Made by a program: the position numbers and the translations under genes
Part shown: piece after piece, positions 639-15,607 of the stretch
Numbering within the stretch: position 1 is the first letter of the stretch
Layout of the letters: each line of letters starts with the position of its first letter
Virus record (IMG/VR): IMGVR_UViG_3300042455_000345
Span: 1 to 25,401 of that record
From: a virus
DNA length: 25,401 nt
Reading direction: 5' to 3' (one strand)
The notes under the pieces: generated by a model
What the model saw: the letters and a program-made list of their open reading frames with translations, nothing else
Database searches by the model: none
What the model was told of the DNA's origin: nothing

Positions 639-1184
639 TCAAACCACGTTATCTTCTACGGATTCCCACCATTGATATGATAGAGTCACCGTGAATTCTT
701 CAATTGCATCATTGGAACCCCAGTCAACATCAATTGGAGAAACGTCTGTTGGAAATAAACCAATAAACTTATATTTCTTCAATGTGTCACCGTTCTTGGC
801 GAATTGTTTAACTTCTCCGTCAACAGTATAACTGCCTGGAGTTTGTGCCAATGGGTTACGAACGTTTAAACTGTGGCTGTTCAAGCCATTCATCCATCTT
901 TCAAATGCATTACGCACCACAAAGTCTTCATCATTGATGATCGAAAGTGTCCAGTCAGTGAAGGTTCTGTTGCCTACAAACTTCAACTCACGGCCGAAGT
1001 ATTGAACAGGCACAGTGCCAACAGTAGAACCTGGAAGTTGTGCGGTCTTACACATGAATGATAATTTCGTTTGTGCATTACCAGGTAAAGCAAATGCCGG
1101 AAAAGGCATGGTTACCTCAAAGAGGTTTGGTCTCGCACCATCACCCTGCATTTGAGAGCGGAATTCGTTAATATTAAATGCCAT
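639..1184 (-). CDS. gp19: Tail tube protein, T4 gp19-like
   Basis: The 181-aa protein would polymerise into the inner tail tube through which DNA passes. It has the family's layout: an N-terminal segment MAFNINEFRSQMQ, then a beta-rich core with CKTAQLPGSTVGTVPVQYFGRELK at about 45-68, FTDWTLSIINDEDF at about 76-89 and the C-terminal strand EEFTVTLSYQWWE. The length is close to T4 gp19 (163 aa). It lies directly after the sheath gene, as in T4. GGAG at about 1193-1196 gives a well-spaced ribosome site for the ATG at 1182-1184. A late-promoter-like box lies just upstream. The product should be abundant, which fits the hairpin that follows. Confidence 0.95.
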   Translation of the reverse strand: MAFNINEFRSQMQGDGARPNLFEVTMPFPAFALPGNAQTKLSFMCKTAQLPGSTVGTVPVQYFGRELKFVGNRTFTDWTLSIINDEDFVVRNAFERWMNGLNSHSLNVRNPLAQTPGSYTVDGEVKQFAKNGDTLKKYKFIGLFPTDVSPIDVDWGSNDAIEEFTVTLSYQWWESVEDNVV

Positions 1185-1204
1185 TTAATTTTCTCCTATC
1201 TCTC

Positions 1205-1212
1205 TATTTATT
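1205..1212 (-). promoter_or_regulatory. Late-promoter-like box AATAAATA upstream of gp19
   Basis: On the minus strand the box reads AATAAATA and overlaps the gp18 stop codon. It lies 20 bases before the gp19 ATG. It matches seven of eight bases of the T4 late promoter TATAAATA. I infer promoter function from similarity and position only. Confidence 0.5.
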
Positions 1213-2887
1213 AGAATCGTCCAACGATTTCATTGAATGCAACACCAGTACGGACTGCAACAAAGTTTAGTTGGATGAAGTTGATGGAACGGGCTGGTTT
1301 GACATAAATGTCACCAACAAACTCATTGCGGTCGATGACTTCCGGTGTATTATTTGTAGTATCACAAACAACACGGAAGTCATAGATGCCACGTCGGCCT
1401 TGGATTTCACGTAAATACGGTTCAACCAAGTTAACAAACTGAGCACGTGTAAATTCATCGTTGAATTCAAACAACGAAGAACGTGAAGCACGAGCAACTG
1501 TTTTCTCTAGTACAATAAACAGTCTACGAACGTTAATTCTGTCCATTGCTTCTGGTCTGTTCAATAGAGTCTTATCACCGAACAATACAGTACCTTCACC
1601 TGGGAAGGTTACAACAGGGTTAATACCTGAATTGTACAATGAATCTCTTTCGGCTTTGGTTGGATTCCATGCCAACTTAACAACGTTCTTAACTTGACCT
1701 CTATTCAAACCAGCTGGTGAGAACCATGGGTCACGGTCAACGTCAGTTCTAACCAATAGACCGGCAATATCACCGTTCAATGGCAACCAACGATATATGT
1801 CATTGTACTTGTCGTATTGATATTTCCATCCACAATCCATAACTGCGTATGAAGAAGATGTGATAGTATCACGATATGTTTTAACAGTTGATGCTTCTAA
1901 ACCTGAGTTATTCAACACAGCAGTTAGTGGTGGAGAAATGAACACCATGCAATCTTTGCGTGACTCGGCAATAGAAATTAGTCTGTCCGGTACTACATCA
2001 TCTGCAGTTTCACCGGCCATCAATAGAGAAACATCAACAGAGTCAACATTGTTAAACAAATCATAAGATGTGTTTCTGTTACCTGCAGTTGGTGCAGTAT
2101 CTTTACCTGCAGACAAGTCAAAGTTATTGACTGCCAAGCCATTGTAAGCACCAGTTGTTGCTACTTGAATAGCAGTTTGACCCCAGTTGGCACCAGTGTC
2201 AGGATGACCCATCCACCAGATGTACTTAGATTTGCTATTGATAACGTCTTTATAGTAGTTTGAAGAACCGTCTGTATTCTTAGCATCGCCTGCTTTAGAA
2301 ACAAAACCAAATTTTTCAATAACTGTATTTGCTGTACCTGTAATTGCACCTGTCATGTCAACAACAACAATATGAATTTCGTCATTTGATGCTGCTGCTC
2401 TGGATGCATATGTGGATGTAGTAGGTGTTGTACTGAATTCACCTGAGTATGTCCAACCTGTTGCAACGTTGGCGTCAGCCATCGAAACACGTAGTCCATT
2501 ACCTAGAGAACCTGGATACTTTGATGCCCATTGAATAGAATTGTTTCCTGCTGCAAAGTTTTGTTCATAGTTTGTTTTGTTAAGAATTCTTACAGGTGTT
2601 CCAATGTTTGTTGCGTTATTCGCTGTAGAACCTACTGAACGAACAACTCTCAAATCTGAACCATATTGTAAAAAGTTTGCTGCGGTGAAGAATGATGTTG
2701 CGGTGTTGCTGTCTGGTTTACCGAATATTTCTACTAATTGGACTTCATTACTAATTGTGATAATCTCATTCACTGGTCCCCAGTTAAAATTTCCTGCAAA
2801 ACCACCAATAGTTGTTGCTGTGGAAGGCACAACTGTTGTAAGGTCAACTTCTGAAACATTCACGCCTGGTGATAATTGAAAAGCCAT
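1211..2887 (-). CDS. gp18: Tail sheath protein, T4 gp18-like
   Basis: The 558-aa protein would form the contractile sheath around the tail tube. It begins MAFQLSPGVNVSEVDLTTVV, the typical SPGV-x-V-x-E-x-D opening of contractile sheath proteins. It ends with the conserved C-terminal domain region (about 440-558), including RRLFIVLEKTVARAS, a segment of the kind FEFNDEFTRAQFVNLVEPYL, and the final FIQLNFVAVRTGVAFNEIVG. It is shorter than T4 gp18 (659 aa), as is usual for marine relatives, which lack part of the surface domains. AAGGAG at 2896-2901 lies 8 bases before the ATG, a near-ideal ribosome site, and a late-promoter-like box precedes it. Both agree with high expression of a major virion protein. 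Confidence 0.96.
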   Translation of the reverse strand: MAFQLSPGVNVSEVDLTTVVPSTATTIGGFAGNFNWGPVNEIITISNEVQLVEIFGKPDSNTATSFFTAANFLQYGSDLRVVRSVGSTANNATNIGTPVRILNKTNYEQNFAAGNNSIQWASKYPGSLGNGLRVSMADANVATGWTYSGEFSTTPTTSTYASRAAASNDEIHIVVVDMTGAITGTANTVIEKFGFVSKAGDAKNTDGSSNYYKDVINSKSKYIWWMGHPDTGANWGQTAIQVATTGAYNGLAVNNFDLSAGKDTAPTAGNRNTSYDLFNNVDSVDVSLLMAGETADDVVPDRLISIAESRKDCMVFISPPLTAVLNNSGLEASTVKTYRDTITSSSYAVMDCGWKYQYDKYNDIYRWLPLNGDIAGLLVRTDVDRDPWFSPAGLNRGQVKNVVKLAWNPTKAERDSLYNSGINPVVTFPGEGTVLFGDKTLLNRPEAMDRINVRRLFIVLEKTVARASRSSLFEFNDEFTRAQFVNLVEPYLREIQGRRGIYDFRVVCDTTNNTPEVIDRNEFVGDIYVKPARSINFIQLNFVAVRTGVAFNEIVGRF

Positions 2888-2945: not shown

Positions 2946-4586
2946 TTAAAAATTTGAGGATATATAACCTCGGCTTCTAACATCATCTTGCCATACTGTA
3001 CCACCAGAATCAATTACTGGTTCTGGTCTGCCATCGTCAATGATACCTACTGGTGCCAAATCTTCGTCACCTAACATATTTTGTTCCTCTAACATCATCT
3101 TACGGATGTCGATATTGGTATCTTCTTTAAAATAACTCTGTGCAGTTAACCAAGAGAATAACACCAGACCCATAACTAAGTCATCGTTGTTACCTTCTTC
3201 TGCCTCATAACTGTCTCGAACTCGCACAAACGTATTAAGTTCGGCAATTGTGTCAAAGTCATTGATAATTAACTTGTCATTTTCAATCAAGGTCTTCAAG
3301 TTGGCACAACCAATCTTTTTGACTGATTTTGTGGTCTTGATACCGAATGATGTAGAACGCTTGAAACCACCTGAAATTGATTGTCCTTTAATATGATGGT
3401 GTTCTAGCTTATATATGTTCTCATATTCCAGATCATAGTGTAGAATGTCCACGACCTGTTGGCCAATATTGTTAGTCTCAATCAACGCAAATGCTGTATT
3501 GTATCTTTTACATAATGCATAAACAACTGTAGGTAAAAATAACAATGGTAGTTTATTGTTTCGATATTTGGCAACTTGCCTATATGGAACTTGAGACACA
3601 TCAAGTATATTAATCGTTGAGTAATCTTGTGCAACACCTTCAGAACAATCTACACAACCAATGTATAGGTGTCCTGGTATTGGGTCTTGGTAGATATCTA
3701 AACAATCTTCTTGTTTCAATGGGTCAAAGAATGCCAGTGACCTCAATTTAGAACCAGTGATTAATGTTGCCGATGAACCAATAAATTCTGTCTCAAACTC
3801 TTGTCGGAACTGTTCTTCTGATGTGTTACGTATGGTCTCTTCTTTCCATGCGGCATCACGTCCTGGCACCTGTGACCAATGAACCTCCAATGGTTTATAG
3901 GTCGACCGTTTCTCTGTTGCATCAACCCACATCTTATAGAAGTGGTTCAGTCCATATGGGGTAGAAACAATAATAACTTTGGTAGTCTTACCAGATGAGA
4001 TAACAGGATAGGTTGACGTAAAGAATTCGTCAGCCATATTCTTTGGAACGAACGCAAATTCGTCCAAGAAAATTAAGTTATAAGAACCACCTCGAACACC
4101 AGATGCTGATGTTGCAAAGGCTGCAATCTTTGATTTGTTTTCTAGTTCAATATTACCTTTGTTCCAAGTAATGATACCTTGTTGCAACCAAAGTGGTAAG
4201 TATTCATATGCATATTGCACACGACCTAAAATTTCACGTGCAAGTGAACCTTTGTTGGCAAGAATGGCAATACTGTAATCGTCTTGAAATAGAATCGACC
4301 ATAACATAAAACCTACAGTCGTAGTTGTTTTACCAACCTGACGAGGCATCTTTGCAATACAGAATCGATTTTCGTGGAATGTTCGTACCATGTCCTCTTG
4401 GAATGGCCACATTTTGAAAGGCACAAGGCCATGGTCAACGTTAACAATTTTAACGTATGACTTAATGAAGTAAACTGGATCTTCAGTACATTTTATAATC
4501 TCGGCAACTTGTTCTTCGGTGTAAGATAGTTCTACACCAGTTCGTTTTAAGTTTGCGTTGCCGAGGTAACCACCTGCGTCAATCAT
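2946..4586 (-). CDS. gp17: Terminase large subunit, T4 gp17-like packaging ATPase/nuclease
   Basis: The 546-aa motor protein cuts concatemeric DNA and drives it into the prohead. All key motifs can be read. They are an adenine-binding Q-type motif (PFQ at 61-63), Walker A PRQVGKTT at 81-88, Walker B LIFLDEFAF at 171-179 with D175 and catalytic E176, and the coupling motif STPYG at 208-212. The RNase-H-like nuclease acids are D313 (in VDCSEG), E370 (in ALIETNN) and D468/D469 (in GNNDDLVMG). It is shorter than T4 gp17 (610 aa). The ATG overlaps the stop of the preceding Dps-like gene in a TAATG junction, which suggests coupled translation. In T4 the preceding gene is gp16, so the Dps-like gene interrupts the normal pair. 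Confidence 0.98.
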   Translation of the reverse strand: MIDAGGYLGNANLKRTGVELSYTEEQVAEIIKCTEDPVYFIKSYVKIVNVDHGLVPFKMWPFQEDMVRTFHENRFCIAKMPRQVGKTTTTVGFMLWSILFQDDYSIAILANKGSLAREILGRVQYAYEYLPLWLQQGIITWNKGNIELENKSKIAAFATSASGVRGGSYNLIFLDEFAFVPKNMADEFFTSTYPVISSGKTTKVIIVSTPYGLNHFYKMWVDATEKRSTYKPLEVHWSQVPGRDAAWKEETIRNTSEEQFRQEFETEFIGSSATLITGSKLRSLAFFDPLKQEDCLDIYQDPIPGHLYIGCVDCSEGVAQDYSTINILDVSQVPYRQVAKYRNNKLPLLFLPTVVYALCKRYNTAFALIETNNIGQQVVDILHYDLEYENIYKLEHHHIKGQSISGGFKRSTSFGIKTTKSVKKIGCANLKTLIENDKLIINDFDTIAELNTFVRVRDSYEAEEGNNDDLVMGLVLFSWLTAQSYFKEDTNIDIRKMMLEEQNMLGDEDLAPVGIIDDGRPEPVIDSGGTVWQDDVRSRGYISSNF

Positions 4587-5020
4587 TATTTAATAAAACT
4601 TCTTAACATCCATGCATGTTTTTGGTGTTGGTCTAACAAGTCTTGCAGAAAATTACCAACAGCTGGTTCTCCTGCTTGGTCAGCAGCCACAATACCTGCA
4701 CGTAAATGAACAATTAATCTATCGTTATCTCTTTTCAATTCTGCCAACATTGAAATTGGAGAAGGAATAATTACTGATTCTTCTAAGTCAGCCAACTCTA
4801 ACATTCTCAACAAAGAACCTGGTGCATATGAATCCAACATACGAATCTTCTCTGCAATTAAATCGGTATTATTGAATATAGAAGTGTATAGTTCACCAAA
4901 GAAATCGTGATATTCAGAGAAGTCTGATCCTTCTACGTTCCAGTGAAACCCGTGAGTCTTAAAATACAAGGCAAAATTTGTACCTAATATTACTTTCATT
5001 TGTTGAATTAATTGATCCAT
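4586..5020 (-). CDS. Dps/mini-ferritin-like protein inside the packaging operon
   Basis: The 144-aa protein looks like a Dps-type ferritin-like four-helix protein. Dps forms 12-mers that oxidise and store iron using peroxide, and some also bind DNA. Seen here: the signature HWNVEG at 26-31 after a hydrophobic helix, then YHDFFGELY at 37-45, D53 and E57 in NTDLIAEKIR, and the typical C-terminal helix ending HQKHAWMLRSFIK. Aligned by spacing to E. coli Dps, the ferroxidase ligands H51, H63, D78 and E82 correspond to H26, H38, D53 and E57. The D67 equivalent is G42. The lysine-rich N-terminal tail that E. coli Dps uses for DNA binding is absent. It lies one base after the gp16 stop (TAATATG) and overlaps the gp17 start, so it should be made with the terminase. 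The biological role in the phage is unknown. Confidence 0.88.
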   Translation of the reverse strand: MDQLIQQMKVILGTNFALYFKTHGFHWNVEGSDFSEYHDFFGELYTSIFNNTDLIAEKIRMLDSYAPGSLLRMLELADLEESVIIPSPISMLAELKRDNDRLIVHLRAGIVAADQAGEPAVGNFLQDLLDQHQKHAWMLRSFIK

Positions 5021-5021
5021 A

Positions 5022-5417
5022 TTATTTCTCTTTATTTGACTTTAAAAACTTTACCAATTCTGTGGTTGAACCAACAAACACAGCTTTATCTATGTTCATT
5101 GATTTATCATTCATAGATTTTGGTGCTAAATCTTTTTTGCGTTTTTGAATTTCCATTAGGTCTTTATTTAGGTCAGACATATTTTTAAGCATTGTGGCCA
5201 CAACCTCGAATGCTCTTGGGTGATGCGTGTCTTTAGCAACGTGTATCAAAGTGTCCATTGCAGAGTTACCTTTGGTAATCATCTCACGTATATTCTGCCG
5301 AGCAAACTCAGCATCATCGGCAATATCTGGTGTTAAGTCAGTGTGTACTAACTGACCAGCAGATTCCAATGGTTCGATCTCCAATAATTGAGAAAGATTT
5401 TCATCCATTTTTTTCAT
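5022..5417 (-). CDS. gp16: Terminase small subunit, T4 gp16-like
   Basis: The 131-aa protein is assigned as the small terminase, which recognises DNA and regulates the gp17 motor. The central region ADDAEFARQNIREMITKG at about 34-51, followed by SAMDTLIHVAKDTHHPRAFEVVATMLKNMSD (52 onward) and a charged helix with QKRKKDL, matches the helical core of T4-type gp16, where I recall an equivalent xARxNI..LI..G..AL..L...A...E.PRA pattern. Length is somewhat below T4 gp16 (164 aa). The start could be either the ATG at 5417 or the second Met three codons later. Neither has a convincing ribosome site. Its normal partner gene gp17 is displaced by the Dps-like gene. Confidence 0.88.
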   Translation of the reverse strand: MKKMDENLSQLLEIEPLESAGQLVHTDLTPDIADDAEFARQNIREMITKGNSAMDTLIHVAKDTHHPRAFEVVATMLKNMSDLNKDLMEIQKRKKDLAPKSMNDKSMNIDKAVFVGSTTELVKFLKSNKEK

Positions 5418-5433
5418 AATTTATTTTAAATGT

Positions 5434-6084
5434 TTATAAATTTGCAATTGCGGTTTGAAAATCAGCATAAGTTGCACTGTTTGCAGCTAAACTTTTTAGA
5501 CTTGTTATGGTAATAGTTGTATTACTTGTTGTATTTGCTTTATTAAACGCAGCTTGTGCTTGAGTTAGAGATAGTGTGGTATTAGATGCAACGAAAGAGG
5601 CAGGCTGTTGAATAATAACATTACCAACCATACCGGCATGGTTTTGGCATTGGTAAACATATGTTGAACCTACTAGACTAAAAGGAACTTTCCAATAAAG
5701 AGTGCCGTTTATCTGAGCTTGTGCGTTAGAACTCGTTGAAACTGTACCAGTATTGCTAACGTGTGTTAGTCCTATATTGAAACTAGAACCACCTGATGAT
5801 GTCCGTATCATAAACGGATGACCATCTAAATTATTTAAAACAAATGCTATGGTTTCACCACCAGAAACATACACTGTAGGATTGTTTCCTGAATATTGAT
5901 CGATTAGATAAGCACTTGATCCAGAAGCTGTTACAGATAATCCGGTAACAGCACTCGTATAATTAGAGTTAGTTGTGTTATAAACTTCTGTAAAATTTTC
6001 GTTGAGTTTGGTGAAAGCCGTTCGCAGAGGATCACCTGTGCCAGTATTTGGTCCTGTTCCTATATCAATTGTTTGTTGTGTCAT
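5434..6084 (-). CDS. Virion-associated cupredoxin-domain protein
   Basis: The 216-aa protein has three parts. Residues 1-40 carry a phage fibre-type motif (TGDPLRTAFTKLNENFTEVY, a pattern I know from T4-like structural proteins of aquatic phages). Residues about 41-162 form a cupredoxin-like beta domain. Residues 163-216 are Ala/Thr/Asn-rich and resemble the fibre repeats (AQAAFNKANT). A complete set of type 1 copper ligands is visible: H89 in DGHPFMI and C146, H149 and M152 in YQCQNHAGMVG. The C-x2-H-x2-M spacing is the same as in amicyanin. The gene overlaps the gp15 stop (TAATG) and precedes gp16, so it should be a late structural product. No signal peptide is visible. The same domain occurs in the giant fibre at 21871-22262. 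Copper binding is inferred from the residues only; the fold may have been co-opted for adhesion. Confidence 0.8.
   Translation of the reverse strand: MTQQTIDIGTGPNTGTGDPLRTAFTKLNENFTEVYNTTNSNYTSAVTGLSVTASGSSAYLIDQYSGNNPTVYVSGGETIAFVLNNLDGHPFMIRTSSGGSSFNIGLTHVSNTGTVSTSSNAQAQINGTLYWKVPFSLVGSTYVYQCQNHAGMVGNVIIQQPASFVASNTTLSLTQAQAAFNKANTTSNTTITITSLKSLAANSATYADFQTAIANL
5581..5972 (-). repeat. Cupredoxin-domain duplication, copy 1
   Basis: This 392-base stretch aligns end to end, with no net length change, to 21871-22262 inside the giant fibre gene. Long runs are identical, for example around the GHPFMIR codons at 5806-5824. The two encoded segments differ at roughly 29 of 130 residues by my count by eye. 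Confidence 0.88.
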
Positions 6085-6971
6085 TATAGTTTATCCGTTT
6101 TAATTAATGTTGAATCAGTAAATACTAAAGTAGTATCTGAAGTAGTAAAAATAACTTGAGGTTCATATGTAGAACCAAATGATGTAAACGTTTCTGCAAA
6201 TCCATATTCATCATCTGGACCAGCAGTGTTTGGATTTGGTCTAGTTTGCACAGAAGATATAATTGAATTTTGTGTGAATGTATTTGATGTGATAATGTCA
6301 CCATTTGCCGAGTTGGCAAAATTCATATGTGTGTTTGCAGTAGATGTTGTAATCATCTCACTTGTCTTAACTGGTGGCCAAATATATGCTTTGGCTGTGA
6401 ATGTCAAGTCCCATAGAATCAAACGAGTACTCATCATATCACCTTCATAATCTGTAGTTGTCGATACAGAATTTAATATAATTGGCATGTCGTACTTTTG
6501 ATCCATACCAGGAATAAAATCCATCGTTACAGTAAAATCTGGTGTGAAGAATGGAAGTATTTGTTCCATAATCTGAGCACCATCTTCTGTATTACGAACA
6601 TATACTGATAAGTTAAAATCAAAGTTATATGGTATTGGTCCGTATTGTGACTTTAATGAACTGTTATTTGCACCAACTGAAAAGTTTCGGTTAGTAGTAA
6701 CACCTTTGCGACTAGAATCATATGACATACCTACCATATCAAATGAAATTCTAGGCACAGATATTGCAATAGATTTTGTTAAGTCTGGATCGGAGGCCAA
6801 ACGAGTTAAGTATTTTTCTTTGGCACCATAAGACAAAGGCACTTTAAATCTTTCGACCTCTGTTGCCATATCTCTGGTGTAACGAATCAACTGAATGTCG
6901 TTAAATAGTGTGCCAAAACCTACGACAACTTTTCGTATGGTTCTGTTATAGAAGTGTGCATTACCTAGCAT
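6084..6971 (-). CDS. gp15: Tail completion / sheath stabiliser protein, T4 gp15-like
   Basis: The 295-aa protein is assigned as gp15, the hexameric ring that caps the tail and joins it to the neck. The N-terminus (MLGNAHFYNRTIRKVVVGFG, FNDIQLIRY, then FKVPLSYGAKEKYLTRL and VPRISFDMVGMSYDSSRK) follows the T4 gp15 pattern of FYNxxFRR, LFxxIxIxR, RVPIxYAxKE and LPRIxxxxxxxxY. The length is close to T4 (272 aa). The C-terminal 70 residues, rich in Thr, Ser and Asn, look less conserved. The start overlaps the gp14 stop in TAATG and the stop overlaps the cupredoxin gene's ATG, so the three genes look translationally coupled. Confidence 0.94.
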   Translation of the reverse strand: MLGNAHFYNRTIRKVVVGFGTLFNDIQLIRYTRDMATEVERFKVPLSYGAKEKYLTRLASDPDLTKSIAISVPRISFDMVGMSYDSSRKGVTTNRNFSVGANNSSLKSQYGPIPYNFDFNLSVYVRNTEDGAQIMEQILPFFTPDFTVTMDFIPGMDQKYDMPIILNSVSTTTDYEGDMMSTRLILWDLTFTAKAYIWPPVKTSEMITTSTANTHMNFANSANGDIITSNTFTQNSIISSVQTRPNPNTAGPDDEYGFAETFTSFGSTYEPQVIFTTSDTTLVFTDSTLIKTDKL

Positions 6972-7915
6972 TAAGGTTCACCAAATGGGTTATGTTCAGT
7001 GAAGTCTAGTACATCGTCACCTTCATCTTGAATAATGTTGTTGTCTGCCACATCTTCAAACACACTGTCTGTTGGCATATCGTCTGCTGCAGTTTCTAAT
7101 GCCCATGTTGCACCACTGGTTGCACCAATAATAGTTACACCAACTGTAAACTGACCTTTGACATTAACAACATCCAAGTGTCGACCAGGAACCGTTGTGT
7201 GTACGGTAGCTTTGGCGTTTGCAGTTGCCAATGATGAACCTTGATAAACAAACTCACCAACTGTAAATTTGCCTGTGCCATTGACAGGTACATCTAAACG
7301 TGTTCTCTTGTATGAATCAAATGCTTGTTCGTCTATCTCTGTGCGACCAGTTTGAATCAACTCATCAGATAATACGAACTGTTTCAGTTTCAATGCATAA
7401 ACATAAACATTGCCACCACGTCCACGACCTAATGTGTAGAACATTGCTTGGTCATTTTCATGTTCAACAAAAGTTATTTCAAAAAAGTTTTGCATCAATG
7501 GAATGTAAATTAAATCACCTTCCATTGGGCGGTTTGGTCCAGTGTTAATAACTAAGTCACCAAGTCTAGGTATACTATAGTTTGTGGCACCAGAGGCATA
7601 TTTAAATCTACGGCGAGAAATCAGTAGTGTTATTTCATCTCGAATCTCAAGACCAAACTTAGAAATAAAGTCTTGTTCACCATCCATGCCTGTAACATTT
7701 TCCAAGTAGACTTCAATTGGAAATGCAACTGTATATTGTTTTAGTGGGTCTTCACCATACAAAGGGTCTGCACCATTCGGGTCTGCACTAGATCGTGGTA
7801 GATAAAACACGTCCATACCATACTGTTGCATGGCCTCAATTACCAAGTCTTCAACTAGTAGTTGTTCTTGAGTAATTCCTGTTGGAAATGGTTGAAAGTA
7901 AAAATTTGTAGGCAT
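6971..7915 (-). CDS. gp14: Neck protein, T4 gp14-like, with an inserted beta domain
   Basis: The 314-aa protein is the second neck protein, which joins the filled head to the tail. Its N-terminus MPTNFYFQPF, with EQLLVEDLVIEAMQQYGMDVFYLPR following, is typical of gp14. The conserved core continues through LGDLVINTGPNRPMEGDLIYIPL at about 118-140 and the C-terminal tail DNNIIQDEGDDVLDFTEHNP fits marine relatives. It is longer than T4 gp14 (256 aa). The extra length includes residues about 205-275, a Gly/Val/Thr-rich segment (GEFVYQGSSLATANAKATV ... GVTIIGATSGATW) like domains found in other phage structural proteins. The gene lies 3 bases after the gp13 stop. Confidence 0.94.
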   Translation of the reverse strand: MPTNFYFQPFPTGITQEQLLVEDLVIEAMQQYGMDVFYLPRSSADPNGADPLYGEDPLKQYTVAFPIEVYLENVTGMDGEQDFISKFGLEIRDEITLLISRRRFKYASGATNYSIPRLGDLVINTGPNRPMEGDLIYIPLMQNFFEITFVEHENDQAMFYTLGRGRGGNVYVYALKLKQFVLSDELIQTGRTEIDEQAFDSYKRTRLDVPVNGTGKFTVGEFVYQGSSLATANAKATVHTTVPGRHLDVVNVKGQFTVGVTIIGATSGATWALETAADDMPTDSVFEDVADNNIIQDEGDDVLDFTEHNPFGEP

Positions 7916-7918
7916 TCA

Positions 7919-8872
7919 TCAACCAGTCAAAATTTCTGGAGGTAGTACGTTGTAGGCTTGCATCTCAGTTTCAATCTTATCGATTTCGACTTGTGCTTCA
8001 GCCATAATTCGAGGACCATCTAACGTAACTCCACCTGGCATCTGAACACCAGCAAATTTTGACAGGTTGGTACCCCACTGGTATTTAATCAAAGCCGTGG
8101 CATACTGTTTTAAAAATCTATCATCCCAAACATCAGATACACCAGTCTTTGTGGCTGTTGCAGTGGTTACACTTGTTGCTAAGTTTGTGGTTAGATATGC
8201 TTGTGTTGGTGAAATGATACGATTAACTTGTGCATCTTGTCCACTAATTGTAATGATATCACCTTCAATAATTTGTTGGTCAAATGTTGTACCAGTACCT
8301 GTGATTAGGTTTGATGTGTTTGTTGCCGTTACTGTACCAGTTAACGTTATAGTATCAGGCACTAACTTACGATAACATTCAATAACCACATATTCACCTA
8401 AAGTTGCATCACGTGACCAATCAATGTCTAAGAAGATTTTGTTTTGGTGACGATTGAATCGGTGCTGTGGGTAACCAGAGAACAACATGTTTAATGTTGT
8501 GATATGTTGCATTGTGATTTCATATGACACATAAGATACCGATGTGAAGTCATACAAATCATGTAGACGCAATTGGTAACGAAGGTCAAACATATTGATT
8601 GATGAATTAGAATCATCAAACGGAAATATTTTAGTTACAAAGATAACTGGATCAGGACAGTAAATGAATTTGCGGTCAATATCGTCTTGTGTAATTCTGT
8701 GCTTCATGTAAATCTTTTCAACACCATCAAAATGATAGTCGTGAAAAAACTGTAGTGCATCATCAATTCGGTCGTCAACTTGGTCATCATCCACGTTAAT
8801 TTGAATAACGGGAAACCCTAGTCTACGAAGACAATAATCTTTAAATTCGGTTCTTGTTACTGGTGCAGCCAT
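7919..8872 (-). CDS. gp13: Neck protein, T4 gp13-like, with an inserted Ig-like/beta domain
   Basis: The 317-aa protein is the first neck protein, which docks to the portal after packaging. The N-terminus (RTEFKDYCLRRLGFPVIQIN, then DDQVDDRIDDALQFFHDYH) and the C-terminus (VWDDRFLKQYATALIKYQWG, LPGGVTL-like MPGGVTLDG) are the standard gp13 pattern. Between the core segments IECYRKLVPD (164-173) and VWDDRF (248-253) sits an extra stretch of about 74 residues, rich in Thr, Gly and Ile (TGTVTATNTSNLITGTGTTF ... GDIITISGQ), which looks like an inserted beta-sandwich. In other gp13 proteins I recall these core segments being nearly adjacent. TATAAAAG lies upstream but overlaps the preceding stop. 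The ribosome site is weak (GAG about 8 bases upstream). Confidence 0.94.
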   Translation of the reverse strand: MAAPVTRTEFKDYCLRRLGFPVIQINVDDDQVDDRIDDALQFFHDYHFDGVEKIYMKHRITQDDIDRKFIYCPDPVIFVTKIFPFDDSNSSINMFDLRYQLRLHDLYDFTSVSYVSYEITMQHITTLNMLFSGYPQHRFNRHQNKIFLDIDWSRDATLGEYVVIECYRKLVPDTITLTGTVTATNTSNLITGTGTTFDQQIIEGDIITISGQDAQVNRIISPTQAYLTTNLATSVTTATATKTGVSDVWDDRFLKQYATALIKYQWGTNLSKFAGVQMPGGVTLDGPRIMAEAQVEIDKIETEMQAYNVLPPEILTG

Positions 8873-8883
8873 TTTTTACTCTT

Positions 8884-10110
8884 TTATACATTACCGGTGT
8901 TTGTTGATGGGAATGAACGACCTGAACCCCATATAATTCTGACTGCTCCATCAGCACCGAAAGATCCTCGTCTTCCACCACCGTTAGTGGAACCGCCGCC
9001 GCCACCACCATAAGCACCACCGGCACCGCCAGCATTCCCATCATTATTGTAAATTCCGCCGCTGGATTGGCCAGTGGCGCCGCCTGATCCGCCAAATCCG
9101 CCGCCACCTTGTGGCGATCTTGCTGTTGCACTGGCACCTTCACCCAATATACCTGTGCCACCTCCACCTCCACCAGCATTACCAGTTGTACCACCGCCTG
9201 CGCCACCACCATAACCTCCGCCAGCTGTACTGTTGGCCTCATATCCTGCTGCCCCGTAACCGCCGCCACCTGAATATCCACCAGCACCACCGCCACCGCC
9301 AGGATAATAACCGTACTGTGGTGCGTCTCCGCCATTACCACCGTTGCCGCCGCCATCGCCAGTATAACCACCACCGCTGCCACCAGAGGCTCCACCACCA
9401 CCACCATTGAACTGTCCGCCGCCGCCGCCATTACCAGCAACTGTACCGCCAGATATAAAGTAACTTTGGTTTCCCTGGCCTTCATTGCCGTAAGAACCAA
9501 CTACAACAGTATAAGAAGATCCTGGTGTTACTGATATATTATTTTTCCAACCAAGTCCACCTCCACCACCGCCGGCCGAGTCGTAATTAGAGTTCACACC
9601 GCTTGCGCCACCTCCGCTACCTATTGCAACTGCAGACACCGAAGTAACTCCAGCTGGTGCAGTCCACGAATATGTTCCAGCAGTAGTGTATGCTGTTTGA
9701 CCTTGAACTACTGTTATACTTGTATCATTGATTGTCAAGTTTGATGTTGTAGCTAATATTGTTCCAGAGGTAGAACCAGACCGGATAGAAACTGTAAATG
9801 TCTCAGCACCTTCAGTTGAAGAATCTGCAGTTGGCGTTACTGTGAAAGAACCAGCATTTGATGTGATGCTGAAAGAACCAGAAGATGTAGAAAAGTCGCC
9901 GGCATTTGAGTCTATAGACCAATAGTATGTTCCATTGGTTATATTTGCACCAGAAACATTAAGTGTTAAAGATGAACCTTCATTAATATTATTAGCTGCA
10001 GCAGTTAATGTATATGTTGGAGGTGGTGGAGCCACAGTGGTTGGCCACAAACCATCTGCTCGTAGGTCATTCATTTTACGTAATGTAAAAATATCGTTTA
10101 AAAGACTCAT
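8884..10110 (-). CDS. Glycine-rich tail-fibre adhesin with one Calx-beta-like domain
   Basis: The 408-aa protein is a probable receptor-binding tip. Residues 1-25 hold the GLWPT motif shared with two upstream genes. Residues about 33-131 form a Calx-beta-like domain (NNINEGSSLTLNVSG ... GAETFTVSIRSG). Residues about 132-210 hold PAGVTSVSAVAIGSGG and GLGWKNNISVTPGSSYTVVVG, and the rest is tens of glycines in runs ending in GADGAVRIIWGSGRSFPST. The GAVRIIWG-GR-FPS ending is common in fibre proteins of aquatic T4-like phages. Glycine runs of this kind form a polyglycine II sandwich in the gp38 adhesins of T-even and S16 phages; I infer a similar fold. It is a shorter paralogue of the 534-aa protein at 10468-12072. 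Codons for glycine make the minus strand G-rich here. Confidence 0.85.
   Translation of the reverse strand: MSLLNDIFTLRKMNDLRADGLWPTTVAPPPPTYTLTAAANNINEGSSLTLNVSGANITNGTYYWSIDSNAGDFSTSSGSFSITSNAGSFTVTPTADSSTEGAETFTVSIRSGSTSGTILATTSNLTINDTSITVVQGQTAYTTAGTYSWTAPAGVTSVSAVAIGSGGGASGVNSNYDSAGGGGGGLGWKNNISVTPGSSYTVVVGSYGNEGQGNQSYFISGGTVAGNGGGGGQFNGGGGGASGGSGGGYTGDGGGNGGNGGDAPQYGYYPGGGGGAGGYSGGGGYGAAGYEANSTAGGGYGGGAGGGTTGNAGGGGGGTGILGEGASATARSPQGGGGFGGSGGATGQSSGGIYNNDGNAGGAGGAYGGGGGGSTNGGGRRGSFGADGAVRIIWGSGRSFPSTNTGNV
9718..10016 (-). repeat. Calx-beta-like domain repeat, copy in 408-aa adhesin
   Basis: This is a 299-base unit with two further copies of exactly the same length at 11377-11675 and 11686-11984. 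It encodes the segment from AAANNINEGS to SNLTINDTS. Confidence 0.88.
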
Positions 10111-10156
10111 TTGTTTTGCTCTGTTGTTTTGTTATTGATTAATCAAATCACATTTT

Positions 10157-10453
10157 TTATATCTGTGTGGCCAAAAATTCTTCTAGTTTTTTCTTTTGAT
10201 TATCATATTCTGTTTTTTCTTCTTCGGTCATTTCTCGCACTGACCAAACATCCATGCAAACACCATCTACTATTGTATAAACAGGCGTATCATCTAAAAC
10301 AATTTGGTAACTACTAGGTTTAGGACGCTCAACACGGGTGAACGGTATCCAATTGGATGGTACTGAACCAAAAGATTGAATTAAATTACTTTCATACGCA
10401 GGATGGTTTTTTATTAAACCGTTTTCAGTTTCAATATAAAGTTGTTCTTGCAT
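10157..10453 (-). CDS. 98-aa protein between the two glycine-rich adhesins, possible fibre-assembly factor
   Basis: The small soluble protein starts MQEQLYIETENGLIKNHPA and continues with NLIQSFGSVPSNWIPFTRVERP, a Tyr/Val-rich middle, VDGVCMDVWSVREMT, and a charged helix EEEKTEYDNQKKKLEEFLA at the C-terminus. It has no signal peptide or membrane segment. The pattern (a short protein with a charged C-terminal helix next to tail-fibre genes) recalls small tail-fibre assembly/chaperone proteins, and I recall similar HPA-x-x-x-NL-x-x-x-FG-x-x-P proteins beside fibre genes of aquatic myoviruses. The reading frame stays open to 10516, but the ATG at 10451-10453 is chosen because AAGGAG at 10460-10465 lies 6 bases upstream. 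This start also removes the overlap with the preceding gene. Function is inference from context. Confidence 0.82.
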   Translation of the reverse strand: MQEQLYIETENGLIKNHPAYESNLIQSFGSVPSNWIPFTRVERPKPSSYQIVLDDTPVYTIVDGVCMDVWSVREMTEEEKTEYDNQKKKLEEFLATQI

Positions 10454-10459
10454 TTTGTT

Positions 10460-10465
10460 CTCCTT
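10460..10465 (-). promoter_or_regulatory. Start-deciding ribosome binding site AAGGAG
   Basis: This perfect Shine-Dalgarno sequence, 6 bases before the ATG at 10451-10453, fixes the start of the 98-aa protein and excludes the upstream in-frame ATG at 10516. Confidence 0.85.
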
Positions 10466-10467
10466 TT

Positions 10468-12072
10468 TTATTGATCTGTGGTAAGTGTAGATGGGAATGA
10501 ACGACCGGTGCCCCATATAATTCTGACTGCTCCATTTGCGCCGGCGCCAGTTGTCCCACCGTAAGTGCCACCGCCGCCACCGCCGTAGCCGCCGCCTGAA
10601 TTATTTACTGTATAATAATTTGGCGGAGAATATGTAGTTCCAGTACCGTTGGTTCCTCCGCTACCAGCATTGCCTCCATACACTGTTCCACTCGACTGCC
10701 CATTTACTGGAGTAGATGTTCCTGATCCAGATGCCCCTTGTCCTAGAATGCCCACTCCGCCGCCACCGGCTGCAGAATTAGGATACCCGCCGCCGACTCG
10801 AACGCCGGAACTGCCACCACCTGCTCCGCCACCACTTGGTGCTGCTTGACCCGATTCTACTCCTGCTACATAAGTTCCATTTCCTCCTCGGCCACCATCG
10901 CCAGCATATCCGGCGGCACCACCACCACCGCCACCTACTCCAGTGCCTTCGCCTCTGCCGCCGCCGCCGCCGGAACCACCACCATCCCCTGTGTAGGATC
11001 CGCCTGCAGTAGTTGCAGTTTCACCGGTACTGGTGAAAGACGAGCCACCTGCACCGCCTGCGCCACGAACCGTACCCGAATTAATGAAATAACTTTCACC
11101 ACCCCCATTACCATTTGCTGGGCCAGTAATTGAAGTTCCGCCTGTACCAACTACTACTGTATAACCTGTTCCTGGTGTTACTGATATATTATTTTTCCAA
11201 CCTAATCCACCGCCACCGCCACCGCCTCCTGCAACTTGAAACGAGGCGCCAGCGCCTGAACCTCCCGAACCACCAGCGCCAACAGCAACGACACTAACGG
11301 CAGTAACACCAGCTGGTGCTATCCAAGTATAAGTTCCTACTGATGTGTATGCTGCTTGACCAATAACTGCAGTTATACTTGTATCGTTAATTGTTAAGTT
11401 TGATGTTGTAGCCAATATGGTACCAGAAGTAGAACCAGACCTAATTGATACTGTGAATGTTTCAGCACCTTCAGTTGAAGAATCGGCCGTTGGTGTTACT
11501 GTAAATGAACCAGCATTTGATGTTATGGTGAATGAACCAGAAGATGTTCCAAAATCACCAGCGTTTGAATCAATAGACCAATAGTATGTTCCATTAACAA
11601 TATTTGAACCAGAAACATTAATTGTTAGTGCCGATCCTTCGTTAATATTATTAGCTGCAGGAGTTAATGTATATGATGGTGTCAAACTTGTATCGTTAAT
11701 TGTTAAGTTTGATGTTGTCGCTAATATTGTTCCAGAAGTAGAACCTGATCTAATTGATACTGTAAATGTTTCAGCACCTTCTGTTGTTAAGTCAGCCGTT
11801 GGTGTTACTGTAAATGAACCAGCATTTGATGTAATCGTGAATGAACCGGAAGATGTTCCAAAATCACCAGCGTTTGAATCAATAGTCCAGTAATATGTTC
11901 CATTAGTAATACCATCACCTGTTACGTTAAGTGTTAAGGCTGAACCCTCATTTATGTTGTTTGCTGCTGGAGTTAATGCATATGAAAGTACCGCAGTTGG
12001 CCACAACCCAGCAAGTCTTCTGCTTCGGTGTTCGTAACCCCAAAGAGGGCCTGTAATATTTGTTTCTGCCAT
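10468..12072 (-). CDS. Glycine-rich tail-fibre adhesin with two Calx-beta-like domains
   Basis: The 534-aa protein is a longer paralogue of the 408-aa protein at 8884-10110. The N-terminus ends in RRLAGLWPT at about 17-25. Two nearly identical Calx-beta-like domains follow (about 30-131 and 133-234), each with NNINEGSALT and GAETFTVSIRSGSTSGTI. Next come PAGVTAVSVVAVGAGG, a glycine-rich region with GLGWKNNISVTPGTGYTVVVG, and a long glycine-run body ending in GANGAVRIIWGTGRSFPST. The likely role is a surface-exposed receptor-binding fibre tip. The duplicated domain acts as a length spacer, and its copies are similar at the DNA level, so copy number probably changes by recombination. There is no recognisable ribosome site before the ATG, six bases after the stop of the propeller gene. 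Confidence 0.85.
   Translation of the reverse strand: MAETNITGPLWGYEHRSRRLAGLWPTAVLSYALTPAANNINEGSALTLNVTGDGITNGTYYWTIDSNAGDFGTSSGSFTITSNAGSFTVTPTADLTTEGAETFTVSIRSGSTSGTILATTSNLTINDTSLTPSYTLTPAANNINEGSALTINVSGSNIVNGTYYWSIDSNAGDFGTSSGSFTITSNAGSFTVTPTADSSTEGAETFTVSIRSGSTSGTILATTSNLTINDTSITAVIGQAAYTSVGTYTWIAPAGVTAVSVVAVGAGGSGGSGAGASFQVAGGGGGGGGLGWKNNISVTPGTGYTVVVGTGGTSITGPANGNGGGESYFINSGTVRGAGGAGGSSFTSTGETATTAGGSYTGDGGGSGGGGGRGEGTGVGGGGGGAAGYAGDGGRGGNGTYVAGVESGQAAPSGGGAGGGSSGVRVGGGYPNSAAGGGGVGILGQGASGSGTSTPVNGQSSGTVYGGNAGSGGTNGTGTTYSPPNYYTVNNSGGGYGGGGGGTYGGTTGAGANGAVRIIWGTGRSFPSTLTTDQ
11377..11675 (-). repeat. Calx-beta-like domain repeat, second copy in 534-aa adhesin
   Basis: A 299-base unit, very similar to 11686-11984 (offset 309 bases, i.e. 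103 codons) and to 9718-10016 in the paralogous gene. Confidence 0.9.
11686..11984 (-). repeat. Calx-beta-like domain repeat, first copy in 534-aa adhesin
   Basis: A 299-base unit. The most divergent part is at its right end (GDGITNGTYYWTI against SNIVNGTYYWSI in the other copy). Confidence 0.88.
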
Positions 12073-12078
12073 TGTTTA

Positions 12079-13458
12079 TTATACCGTTGTAGTTGAAGAA
12101 GTTGCAGTATGGTCACTTACAGTAAACGTAACCGATCCAACAGTTAATCCACCTGTGATAAGTGTATGTGAAGGATTGCTACCAATACTAAGAGAAACCG
12201 CTTGGGTTGGAAAATCAGCACTGCCATAAACAATAGATCGGCCACCAACTGTATATGTACCTGTTTTTGTACCATCCGTAGGCAACTTATAAACAATAGA
12301 ATCTTGATCGGTAGTATTAGTTGCAGATCCTGCACCATAAAAATCACCAGTATTATCTAAATCTAATACTGTTCTGAAATCACTATCGGTTGTATTAACT
12401 TTATTAACAACTCTTTGCCATTGGAGTGTGCCACTTGAATCGTGTTTCATTATGACTGACCGATTGTCACTCCCAGAAGGATAATACGAACCAGTATAAG
12501 AATTGCCTGTGTTATCAGTAACAGTAGCTGATCCAAATGAGCCAGCAGCATCGTAAATTTTTCCCCAAACTACAGATGATCCACTCGAATTTACTTTGGC
12601 TGTATATACTGAATAATATGAACCGTAATGACCACCAGTGATATATATGTTATTACTACTATCTAATGATATACCTTGGCCAAGCACATAACCACTGCTG
12701 GAAGATATACCAGCTTGCCACACTGAACTGCCAGCTGAATTAATTTTTACAATATAATGTTGGTTAACAGTGGAACTGCCACCACCAGAAGTGGAATATC
12801 CAGACATTAAAACATTATCTGAAGAATCTATAACCAAATCAGAGCCAGTACTTGTGCGAGCATCAAAATTTATTGACCATTGACCTGTTCCACTCGAATC
12901 AAGTTTAAGTAAATATGCAATTTGACCACTGTTTATTGGAAATCCTTGAGAAGTACCTATAATATAAGCATTTCCTGTACTATCAACAGCTATTCCATTT
13001 GCCTGCAAGTTTTCAGCACTAGATGCTGCATAAAAACGTTTTTGGTATAAAATTGATCCAGTAGAATCTGTTTTAATTACAAATCCAGAGTAGTATCCAC
13101 CAAGAACATAACCACCAGTCATATAAACATTATTGGAACTATCAATAAACAATGAACCTCCAGAAAAGCCAAAAGATGTGCTTGAAGAAGAATTTGTATA
13201 TTTTTTTTGAAATTGTATAGTACCAGCTGAATTATATTTTACTAAAACTATATCAGTAGAATTTAAAAGGCTAAGACAATAAACGTTTCCAGAAGAGTCT
13301 ACTTTTACAGAACCATAAAATTCATTAGTGCTAGTTGTTGATAAAGTTGAAATCCATTGTGTATTTGGTAAAGCTGCACTAGTAAAAATAGTTGGCCACA
13401 ACCCACTAGCTCTCTGATTATAGTGATTTTGAGTTGTTAATATTCCACTAATTGCCAT
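12079..13458 (-). CDS. Predicted seven-bladed beta-propeller fibre protein
   Basis: In this 459-aa protein, residues 17-23 read ASGLWPT, the motif also found at the N-terminus of the two glycine-rich adhesins. Residues about 48-396 contain seven repeats, each with a core like hydrophobic-x-D-SS-x-N-hydrophobic-Y-hydrophobic-x-G followed by hydrophobic-x-K-hydrophobic-(N/D)-S-x-G. The blades begin near residues 48, 99, 153, 205, 259, 308 and 361. This is the SBBP-type beta-propeller repeat pattern. Residues about 400-459 are a Thr/Ser-rich beta tail ending in many threonines. The likely role is a receptor-binding or carbohydrate-binding virion protein. No enzymatic residues are recognisable. 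The next gene starts within 6 bases of its stop. Confidence 0.82.
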   Translation of the reverse strand: MAISGILTTQNHYNQRASGLWPTIFTSAALPNTQWISTLSTTSTNEFYGSVKVDSSGNVYCLSLLNSTDIVLVKYNSAGTIQFQKKYTNSSSSTSFGFSGGSLFIDSSNNVYMTGGYVLGGYYSGFVIKTDSTGSILYQKRFYAASSAENLQANGIAVDSTGNAYIIGTSQGFPINSGQIAYLLKLDSSGTGQWSINFDARTSTGSDLVIDSSDNVLMSGYSTSGGGSSTVNQHYIVKINSAGSSVWQAGISSSSGYVLGQGISLDSSNNIYITGGHYGSYYSVYTAKVNSSGSSVVWGKIYDAAGSFGSATVTDNTGNSYTGSYYPSGSDNRSVIMKHDSSGTLQWQRVVNKVNTTDSDFRTVLDLDNTGDFYGAGSATNTTDQDSIVYKLPTDGTKTGTYTVGGRSIVYGSADFPTQAVSLSIGSNPSHTLITGGLTVGSVTFTVSDHTATSSTTTV

Positions 13459-13468
13459 AATGATTCTC

Positions 13469-15220
13469 TTATGTTGTACGTTTAGCTGAAGCGAACACCG
13501 ACACTACGTTGGCGTATGATGAATATATATCTAGTTTATCACCAGAGTACAAATATTTTGGTGCCTCACATAACTCGATTGTGGAGTTCGCAGGTAAAAT
13601 AATGTCTTTGGCAATGTAACCTTGTATCGTATTGCTTGAGTTTGTCCAGATAATACTGATTGCGTGGTTACCAAATGCAGTATCTTGATTAACAATTTTG
13701 ATACTCTCAATAACTGCTGGACTACCTGTTGCAGTATAAAGTGTGGAGTAACCTGTACCAGCCAATGCAGTTGCTCTATCAAACGAAGACAACGCAGTAG
13801 TTTCATATACAATAGTTACGTGTGCATTAGAGTTTGCAGCTGCACCATTGACAAACGACTGCATTTTGATAATGTCATTTGCCTTAACAACTTGTGGTTT
13901 CTTCAACATTTCTACAGAAGAACGAGATGGAATTGGAATATTTCTGAACATCGAAACGTTTGCAGAAGAACCTGTTGGTGTAAAGTCAGCAGTAACAGTC
14001 ACGGCAGCATTAACATCTGGACCAATGTTTGTTACATAGATCGAATAGATTGTCGCATTGGCAGAGAACACTACAGCGTTTGCCAAAGAACTTGTAACTG
14101 CATAACCAGTTGCTACGTTGATTGCAGAGTTGAATAGTCCTGAACCACCGCCTGTGTTAGCCTTGGCATATGCAGAGTTGGCATATGAACTGGCTGCATT
14201 GGAAGCTTGGAAAGCACCGTTCGCATATGAAGACGCAGAAGTACCGTTATTAAATGCAGAGTTTGCCTGTGTAAAAGCACCATTAGCATATGAACTTGCA
14301 GAGTTAGCAACACCATATGCAGCATTGGCATATTCACCGGCCGTTACTGCACGTTGATCGGCTGTTGCTGCATTTGTTGTAGCAGTATTAGCAACACCAA
14401 AAGCACCATTGGCATAAGACGATGCTGAGTTGGCAGCTGCTCGAACCCATGTATCTACTGAATTGTTGGCTGCCGTGAAAGCAGCATTAGCATGAGTGTA
14501 CGCAACGTTTGTGTGATTAATTGGATCGTAACCACGGATAGTTGCTACATCAGTAATCAAGTTGGCCGTTAAGTTAGCAATTCTAAATGTGGCATGACCT
14601 GTGTCGATATACGGAGATGCATCTGGTTCTGGATCGTAGTTATAAAAGAACTTCCAAGTACCATCAGTTGCATCACGGAACATACCTGTGTGGTGATAAG
14701 CACCATCATTATAATTACCTGCAAATCCAAGGTCTGGATTGGCAACAGTATTATTTGCGTTCAGATAAATCATATTATCTTCAACGTTTAGATTTGTTGC
14801 ATCAACGTTGAACACATTACCAGAAACACTCAAGTTACCAGTGACAACAACGTCACCAGAAATAGTGCCGCCAGAAGCAGAGAACTTGGCATTAGCCGCA
14901 GCAAAAGCCGCATTAGCATAGGCACCAGATGTTACAGCACGTTGGTCGGCCGTAGTTGCATTTGTCGCAGCTGTGTTTGCCGTTGAGTATGCAGAGTTAG
15001 CATATGAACCAGCAGATGATGAACCAGTTGATGTAGCATTGGCAGCATCAAATGCCGCTTGAGTGTGATTAGCACGTGCAAGAGGAATACCACCAGCAGA
15101 AGCACCATCGTGTACAACAACGACTTTCTTATCGGTATCTACTGTAATCTCACCAGCTGCGCCAGTAAAGGTAGACGTTTGTACAGTACTACCTCTTCTT
15201 AATTGTATCTGTGTTGGCAT
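13469..15220 (-). CDS. Tail fibre with LRRG N-terminal motif, YANSAY repeats and two C-terminal beta domains
   Basis: Residues 1-50 of this 583-aa protein (MPTQIQLRRGST ... AAGEITVDTDKKVVVVHDG) form the well-known phage fibre N-terminal motif, IxLRRG...GEIxxDTD...xVxxHDG. Residues about 51-112 and 238-362 are Ala/Asn/Tyr-rich repeats of the type SYANSAYxxANT, likely a trimeric fibrous shaft. Residues 117-195 hold a GGTISGDVVVTGNLSVSG cassette related to two cassettes in the giant fibre. Residues about 365-583 are two beta-rich domains with a common pattern (hydrophobic SI-x-V-x-N ... IP-x-P-x-x-SS-x-E ... GD-x-hydrophobic), also resembling the 119-aa protein at 20392-20751. AAGGA lies about 8-12 bases before the ATG and a late-promoter-like box precedes it. 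Confidence 0.85.
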   Translation of the reverse strand: MPTQIQLRRGSTVQTSTFTGAAGEITVDTDKKVVVVHDGASAGGIPLARANHTQAAFDAANATSTGSSSAGSYANSAYSTANTAATNATTADQRAVTSGAYANAAFAAANAKFSASGGTISGDVVVTGNLSVSGNVFNVDATNLNVEDNMIYLNANNTVANPDLGFAGNYNDGAYHHTGMFRDATDGTWKFFYNYDPEPDASPYIDTGHATFRIANLTANLITDVATIRGYDPINHTNVAYTHANAAFTAANNSVDTWVRAAANSASSYANGAFGVANTATTNAATADQRAVTAGEYANAAYGVANSASSYANGAFTQANSAFNNGTSASSYANGAFQASNAASSYANSAYAKANTGGGSGLFNSAINVATGYAVTSSLANAVVFSANATIYSIYVTNIGPDVNAAVTVTADFTPTGSSANVSMFRNIPIPSRSSVEMLKKPQVVKANDIIKMQSFVNGAAANSNAHVTIVYETTALSSFDRATALAGTGYSTLYTATGSPAVIESIKIVNQDTAFGNHAISIIWTNSSNTIQGYIAKDIILPANSTIELCEAPKYLYSGDKLDIYSSYANVVSVFASAKRTT

Positions 15221-15243
15221 TTAAAAGTCCTTTTTTTATATTC

Positions 15244-15251
15244 TATTTATG
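15244..15251 (-). promoter_or_regulatory. Late-promoter-like box CATAAATA upstream of the 583-aa fibre gene
   Basis: The minus-strand sequence CATAAATA lies 23 bases before the ATG and directly after the 94-aa gene. It is the same octamer as at 2935-2942. Confidence 0.58.
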
Positions 15252-15252
15252 T

Positions 15253-15537
15253 TTAGAGTGGCCCAAGGTCCACTACTAGGAAGAAATTTGCTGGTGATGT
15301 AGGTTCAGTCTTTAAATCATATATGACAACGGTTTCTTCATCTAAAGTACCTACAGCCGGTAAAACGGAACCATAGTCTCCGGTTGGAAAATAATTGCTA
15401 GCTGCAGTTGCAGCATCATTCGTTGCGGTGTTTGCTTGTACGTATGCTGAGTTTGCAATTGCGAATACTGAGGTGACCAATGAGGAGAAGTCATTAGCTG
15501 AGTTTAAGTTTTCTGGTTGTATTTTTGTTAGTGCCAT
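15253..15537 (-). CDS. 94-aa fibre-associated protein
   Basis: The small protein opens MALTKIQPENLNSANDFSSL. It then has a single Ala/Asn-rich unit like the fibre repeats (ANSAYVQANTATNDAATAA at about 29-47) and a C-terminal part with GTLDEETVVIYDLKTEP and a hydrophobic end FFLVVDLGPL. It sits between the LamG protein and the 583-aa fibre and is probably a virion component or a short fibre part. There is no good ribosome site before its only ATG, and a CATAAATA box begins four bases upstream of that ATG, so the start is somewhat uncertain. No specific function is recognised. Confidence 0.75.
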   Translation of the reverse strand: MALTKIQPENLNSANDFSSLVTSVFAIANSAYVQANTATNDAATAASNYFPTGDYGSVLPAVGTLDEETVVIYDLKTEPTSPANFFLVVDLGPL

Positions 15538-15541
15538 GTAC

Positions 15542-15549
15542 TATTTATG
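15542..15549 (-). promoter_or_regulatory. Late-promoter-like box CATAAATA next to the 94-aa gene start
   Basis: This has the same octamer as the other boxes, but it ends four bases before the ATG. A transcript from it would begin at or within the start codon, so it may be leaderless, inactive for this gene, or chance. Confidence 0.35.
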
Positions 15550-15598
15550 CTTATTTGGTTTTAAATTTTAGAGGTGATACCGTAAAGTTTTATTGTTA

Positions 15599-15606
15599 TA
15601 TTTATC
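15599..15606 (-). promoter_or_regulatory. Late-promoter-like box GATAAATA upstream of the 94-aa gene
   Basis: The minus-strand GATAAATA directly follows the stop of the LamG gene and is 61 bases upstream of the 94-aa gene ATG. With the box at 15542-15549 it accounts for most of what is recognisable in the 70-base gap, the longest in the window. Confidence 0.5.
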
Positions 15607-15607
15607 T

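Follow-up and report, generated by a model that had tools for sequence, protein, structure and literature searches.

A Dps mini-ferritin gene almost fixed between the terminase genes of an uncultured clade of T4-like phages

Dps genes have been reported from gut phages (Gratiaviridae, Flandersviridae) and from Lactobacillus phages, and were read there as helping the host against oxidative stress (PMC8008677, PMC6669764). The g15–g18 interval of marine cyanomyoviruses has been described as a hypervariable (hyperplastic) cargo region that holds 4 to 14 inserted genes (PMC2984593). Phage Dps genes and the cargo interval are both, then, already known; what is new, within the literature searched, is the near-fixation of Dps between the small (TerS) and large (TerL) terminase genes across a diverse uncultured clade, with repeated exchange in place. 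We found no description of a TerS–Dps–TerL arrangement in the open-licence literature that was searched; a match in the Lake Baikal literature turned out to be a Pithovirus-like protein, not a phage.

In T4 the terminase pair, gp16 and gp17, overlaps by 17 nt. The locus described here has the two genes, their order and the neck and tail cluster in common with T4, but its clade has Dps between them. The earlier note on this DNA took the pair to be adjacent and usually overlapping in T4-like phages; this is so in T4 itself, but in aquatic relatives the two genes are usually separated. S-PM2 has three genes between gp16 and gp17, HTVC008M an oxygenase and a halogenase, and Mosig a small ORF; among the aquatic T4 relatives, the Kyanoviridae have this junction inside the g15–g18 cargo region. 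Since the pair is often split and the cargo region is published, an insert at gp16/gp17 is unsurprising by itself, and its position alone is therefore weak evidence for a role in packaging. Like the hyperplastic region, the interval studied here holds cargo among late structural genes, and Dps is, as expected of cargo, an extra gene between g15 and g18 that varies among relatives: sister clades lack it or have other genes, with a 2OG-Fe(II) oxygenase, a tryptophan halogenase, a nuclease-like ORF, a ParB-like ORF or nothing at the same junction. The content of the hyperplastic region differs from phage to phage, however, whereas the present clade almost always has the same function between gp16 and gp17. 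In the Mosig-type clade, inspection by eye showed that the TerS–TerL gap (L082:6050-6337, L362-L401) contains a small ORF bearing a ParB/sulfiredoxin-like motif (YSVFRGSQRVQAA), frequently together with a 2OG-Fe(II)-oxygenase-like ORF.

The window, by which we mean the whole stretch of DNA analysed (25,401 nt, positions 1 to 25,401 of IMG/VR record IMGVR_UViG_3300042455_000345), carries the Dps gene at 4586..5020 on the minus strand, on which the earlier note was silent. TerS (gp16-like; 5022..5417, minus strand; PF11053 42 bits, phrog_445 106 bits) lies directly upstream, and TerL (gp17-like; 2946..4586, minus strand; PF03237 105 bits, PF17289 45 bits, phrog_5989) directly downstream. Dps is tightly coupled to both, as had been claimed. 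The TerS stop codon TAA is followed by one base and the Dps ATG (TAATATG, 5018..5024, minus strand, in the context AAATAATATGG), and the Dps stop codon overlaps the TerL start (TAATG, 4584..4588, minus strand, in the context AAATAATGATT), an arrangement that suggests translational coupling of Dps and TerL. The same 1-nt overlap with TerL was present in 33 of 132 distinct homologues, and nearly all were spaced by -4 to +15 nt. Genes for gp15-, gp14- and gp13-like neck and sheath-stabiliser proteins (6084..8872, minus strand; PF16724, PF11649, phrog_227, phrog_460, phrog_211) belong to the same co-directional late-type cluster as Dps, and genes for a gp18-like tail sheath and a gp19-like tail tube (639..2887, minus strand; Pfam and PHROG profile matches) lie downstream of TerL. 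In T4, genes 13-19 are of the late class. The T4 late promoter consensus TATAAATA does not occur in the window, so the late timing of Dps is read from gene order alone.

By both sequence and fold, the ORF at 4586..5020 encodes a Dps-family mini-ferritin of 144 aa. It matched PF00210 (Ferritin) with 78.7 bits (E 5e-22; the Pfam cut-off is 24.5 bits) and PHROG 3636 'DNA binding protein' with E 2e-30, and its top PDB sequence match was P. aeruginosa Dps (8ff9, E 2e-19). An AlphaFold (AF2) monomer model, predicted from 21 homologues (the window protein and IMG/VR), had a pLDDT of 95.6 and formed a ferritin-like four-helix bundle with a short helix in the BC loop (helices at residues 2-28, 34-61, 70-76, 88-115 and 119-143). 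The leading PDB fold matches of this model were all Dps, with a TM of 0.94-0.96 to the best bacterial Dps. The earlier note had called the product Dps-like and had staked this on a profile match and a four-helix fold, both of which were found; the motifs that it named are also all present (HWNVEG at H26-G31, H38, D53, E57 and the end HQKHAWMLRSFIK). A chance ORF or mis-call is ruled out by the profile matches, the predicted fold and the purifying selection described below, and a one-off insertion or assembly chimera by the 132 distinct full-length homologues at the same junction.

With the window Dps as query, IMG/VR yielded 80 loci (67-100% identity), in which TerS and TerL adjoin Dps wherever the contig extends far enough. 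An alignment-based IMG/VR search gave further junction loci, down to 62% identity, and the distinct full-length Dps proteins from the TerS–TerL junction numbered 132. At L133 and L599, which are on the same contig, a gp15-like ORF reaches Dps and no separate TerS was seen. To avoid bias from the Dps query, the survey was re-anchored on TerL. Within the window-type TerL clade, Dps precedes TerL in 54 of the 57 informative loci (a count that leaves out six loci ending too early to tell), the exceptions being L271, L275 and L292. With a second anchor, the TerL of L022 (46% identical), Dps was present in every one of the 34 informative loci from close relatives (L532-L565 and similar; identity of at least about 69-71%) and in none of 39 more distant relatives, in many of which TerS abuts TerL. 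Using the TerL of Mosig, from a marine/Pelagibacter-type sister clade, Dps was found in 0 of 70 informative loci. Dps is almost fixed at the gp16/gp17 site of an uncultured T4-like clade, and the insertion that the earlier note saw in one genome recurs in two TerL clades. Auxiliary phage genes usually come and go; the near-constant retention of this one suggests that it is important late in infection. Ten large partial genomes of Dps-bearing relatives contained no second Dps copy, and psbA was absent from the same 10, so there was no cyanophage signal and a cyanophage origin was rejected.

Dps occurs in the genomes of other tailed phages too, namely those of the gut and of Lactobacillus and the cyanophages S-SRM01 and S-EIVl. 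Only six of 50,697 phage records contained a Dps similar to that of the window, and the isolate proteins differ from it in being only 26-31% identical and in not lying at the terminase junction. Among the isolates in these records there was no TerS–Dps–TerL arrangement, the context being seen for four of the six Dps-bearing records: S-SRM01 (two records), BS162P1 and S-EIVl all have Dps elsewhere than at the terminase junction. In S-SRM01, Dps lies at 187 kb and TerL at 128 kb.

Two Dps lineages, A and B, occupy the junction in the uncultured clade. They are about 45% identical and had clade support of 100 and 97 in a quick tree, in which L341 alone formed a third junction lineage. Types A and B are interspersed in the TerL tree, where B needs seven changes, at least 4 of them forced by well supported branches. 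Compared with the window, L079 and L080 have a nucleotide identity of about 90-100% in the TerS and TerL flanks, which falls to 60-75% over a block that coincides with Dps. Local cassette swaps thus occur, between flanks that are 95-100% identical. The L022-type loci (L022, L057, L063, L077, L532-L565) encode a TerL that is 44-47% identical to that of the window, with Dps at about 70% and gp13, gp18 and gp19 at about 60-85% identity, and more distant relatives of the L022-type TerL lack Dps; in these loci TerL has probably been replaced and Dps retained. The interspersion of A and B, together with the cassette swaps, thus suggests that place and function persist while the alleles, and TerL itself, are exchanged. 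Exchange of one Dps for another is the trace expected from selection for Dps activity itself. The dN/dS of Dps was about 0.1 over several pairs, showing that the junction Dps is under strong purifying selection. The phage Dps stood apart from the sampled bacterial Dps (SH-aLRT 89) in a short tree that left many forks open, and the nearest sampled bacterial-labelled gene was 47% identical.

Nuclease-like ORFs were seen by eye beside Dps in several loci: GIY-YIG-like ORFs directly behind it (L021:3011-3427, L244:4112-4690, L287:1561-2136) and, in one locus, an HNH-like ORF preceding it (L295:6025-6555). Homing nucleases in these positions would be a plausible route for local allele exchange.

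When the window Dps is aligned with what we take to be the E. coli Dps sequence, E. coli H51, W52, H63, D78 and E82 fall on H26, W27, H38, D53 and E57, and the phage protein carries the two-His/Asp/Glu signature of the inter-subunit ferroxidase site. H26/H38, D53/E57, W27 and W137 did not vary in any of the 45 junction representatives or among the other phage groups, so that four of the five ferroxidase ligands are invariant. The fifth ligand, the carboxylate at E. coli D67, which is usual in Dps but not found in all, is absent, the window Dps having Gly42 there. Among 132 junction homologues this position is G in 66, N in 45, D in 13 and E in 1, while in bacterial relatives it is E in 40 and M in 34 of 80. 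A carboxylate is missing at this position in 11 of 39 bacterial representatives too, and we therefore did not count it as defining for Dps. Of the two iron sites, one seems intact and the other changed; with Gly or Asn at the D67 position, the second site may be weak and the activity altered. B. anthracis Dlp-1 (1ji5) and the B. brevis protein (1n1q), both of them Dps that have no DNA-binding tail, and P. aeruginosa PA0962 (8ff9) share with the window Dps the fold (TM 0.94-0.95), the His/Asp/Glu ferroxidase residues and the W-M-L-R end, at about 28-30% identity. Unlike these bacterial proteins, phage Dps usually has Gly or Asn at the D67 position and is encoded in a phage packaging cluster.

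We think it fairly probable that the phage-type Dps at the gp16/gp17 cargo slot is a late-made catalytic detoxifier of iron and peroxide, and not a packaging or virion protein. Dps would be translated from the late structural transcript, alongside the terminase, and would assemble into the usual 12-mer shell. In the infected cytoplasm it would take up Fe(II) and oxidise it with H2O2 inside the shell, so that Fenton chemistry would be held down at a time when host iron proteins are breaking down and replicated DNA awaits packaging. It would protect phage DNA chemically instead of coating it, and it would be tied to the terminase not as a physical partner but through the timing of expression and an insertion site that tolerates extra genes. 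Of the roles suggested in the earlier note, the handling of iron and peroxide at a late stage of infection is still the most convincing. Such a role suggests that these phages regularly face iron and peroxide stress late in infection. One redox-protection function is here nearly fixed between two essential packaging genes while its alleles and the neighbouring terminase are swapped, so that selection for function can be separated from selection for sequence.

Pairwise distances were correlated over 37 loci with eight full-length genes. Dps distances gave r values of 0.10 with TerL, 0.29 with TerS and 0.08 with gp19, compared to 0.75 for TerS with gp15, 0.49 for TerL with TerS and 0.33-0.49 for TerL with other neighbouring genes. 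Within the main clade, taking type A only, Dps tracks gp13 (0.79) better than TerL (0.47). These values speak against a specific physical partnership between Dps and the terminase, while leaving room for a weak one; a co-evolving Dps–terminase pair is unsupported at a distance correlation of 0.10.

The window Dps is acidic (pI 5.08, net charge -8; the median pI of the junction set is 5.24) and has no Lys-rich N-terminal tail: helix A begins at residue 2, and some 25 residues present in E. coli Dps are lacking. Its N-terminus (MDQLIQQMKVILGT) is unlike the capsid-targeting sequence of T4 (IPIII MKTYQEFIAEA), as are those of the aligned homologues. With no tail, an acidic composition and no capsid-targeting N-terminus, DNA coating and T4-style encapsidation are both unsupported, although Dps could enter a virion by another route. 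The earlier note had proposed that Dps could protect DNA by binding it or be packaged with it; the missing basic tail, the pI of 5.08, the missing T4-type targeting N-terminus and the r of 0.10 with TerL all argue against this.

Other phage Dps genes have different surroundings. A second group (L299-L321, L326-L327, L332, L335, L338 and similar) lies away from T4-type terminases, with neighbours that have T4-like capsid-targeting N-termini, beside a PHROG virion structural protein. A third (L448-L526) is found on large viral contigs of up to 320 kb, where many neighbours start with MRAxEFIxE or similar. T4-like capsid-targeting N-termini were present in 29/197 neighbours of other phage Dps versus 6/1697 ORFs of bacterial loci, and a second N-terminal pattern in 46/292 versus 4/1683; near-copies are among the ORFs counted, and the patterns were picked with the data already in view, which makes the signal a lead only. 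Five predicted viral proteins of 333-763 aa in BFVD (A0A6J7WPK9, A0A6J7XDU5, A0A6J7WIS1, A0A6J7WVS4, A0A6J5RFH1) contain a Dps fold, and some are named prohead protease. A Dps fused to a capsid-targeting extension was not found in the fetched loci, where the longer ORFs (L316, L323) look, by eye, like upstream start-codon artefacts.

The main rival to the detoxifier reading makes Dps part of the virion or prohead: it would accompany the DNA inside the capsid, or bind while packaging proceeds, and would guard the genome within the particle or as it enters the cell. The place of the gene between packaging genes fits this, as do the Dps genes of other phages that stand among T4-like capsid-targeting N-termini and beside the virion structural family phrog_1645, and so does the Dps fold in viral structure entries that bear the name 'Prohead protease'. 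However, those phages are of different lineages, their neighbours are partly near-copies, the patterns were picked post hoc and the entry names are annotations, while the window Dps and its junction homologues begin at helix A and have no targeting sequence ahead of it. As the window protein is also acidic, has no Lys tail and shows nearly no co-divergence with TerL, we regard a virion role as unlikely. That a mini-ferritin works in DNA packaging or in the virion across the T4-like clade, for example by keeping iron-driven damage away from DNA ends at the motor or by riding in the capsid, is a slim prospect; a Dps in the virion would, if true, be a new kind of capsid passenger.

Dps could instead be a passenger of the hypervariable gp15–gp18 cargo site, kept by frequent transfer, only loosely tied to its place, with any stress gene serving as well. 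Sister lineages do have other genes or none at the same junction, and the g15–g18 hyperplastic region is published (PMC2984593). Unlike usual cargo, however, Dps is close to fixation in a clade that is diverse, and it is replaced by another Dps, not by other genes, which makes this explanation improbable.

The ORF adjoining TerS (window 5434-6084, minus strand) contains a cupredoxin-like stretch that shows the type-1 copper pattern H...C-x-x-H-x-G-M (HPFMI...YVYQCQNHAGM), and there is another in a 1483-aa ORF (20761-25212, minus strand); matches to plastocyanin and Copper-bind were weak. The ferritin fold stores iron, there is a literature on iron in phage tails, and a metal site adjoins TerS, so Dps might store host-released iron for metal-bearing tail or fibre proteins or for phage iron enzymes such as ribonucleotide reductase. 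We consider this very unlikely, as the metal motif adjoining TerS is of the copper type and its ORF is missing in many loci that retain Dps. That Dps compacts or shields the host nucleoid, or counters host defence, is most improbable: DNA binding is known for some Dps proteins, but this one has no basic tail and an acidic composition, had no match in the anti-phage defence library PADLOC and is encoded in a late gene cluster. Upstream of gp13, the window (8884-20392, minus strand) encodes glycine-rich, repeat-bearing and LamG-like proteins that, judged by eye, are probably adhesins.
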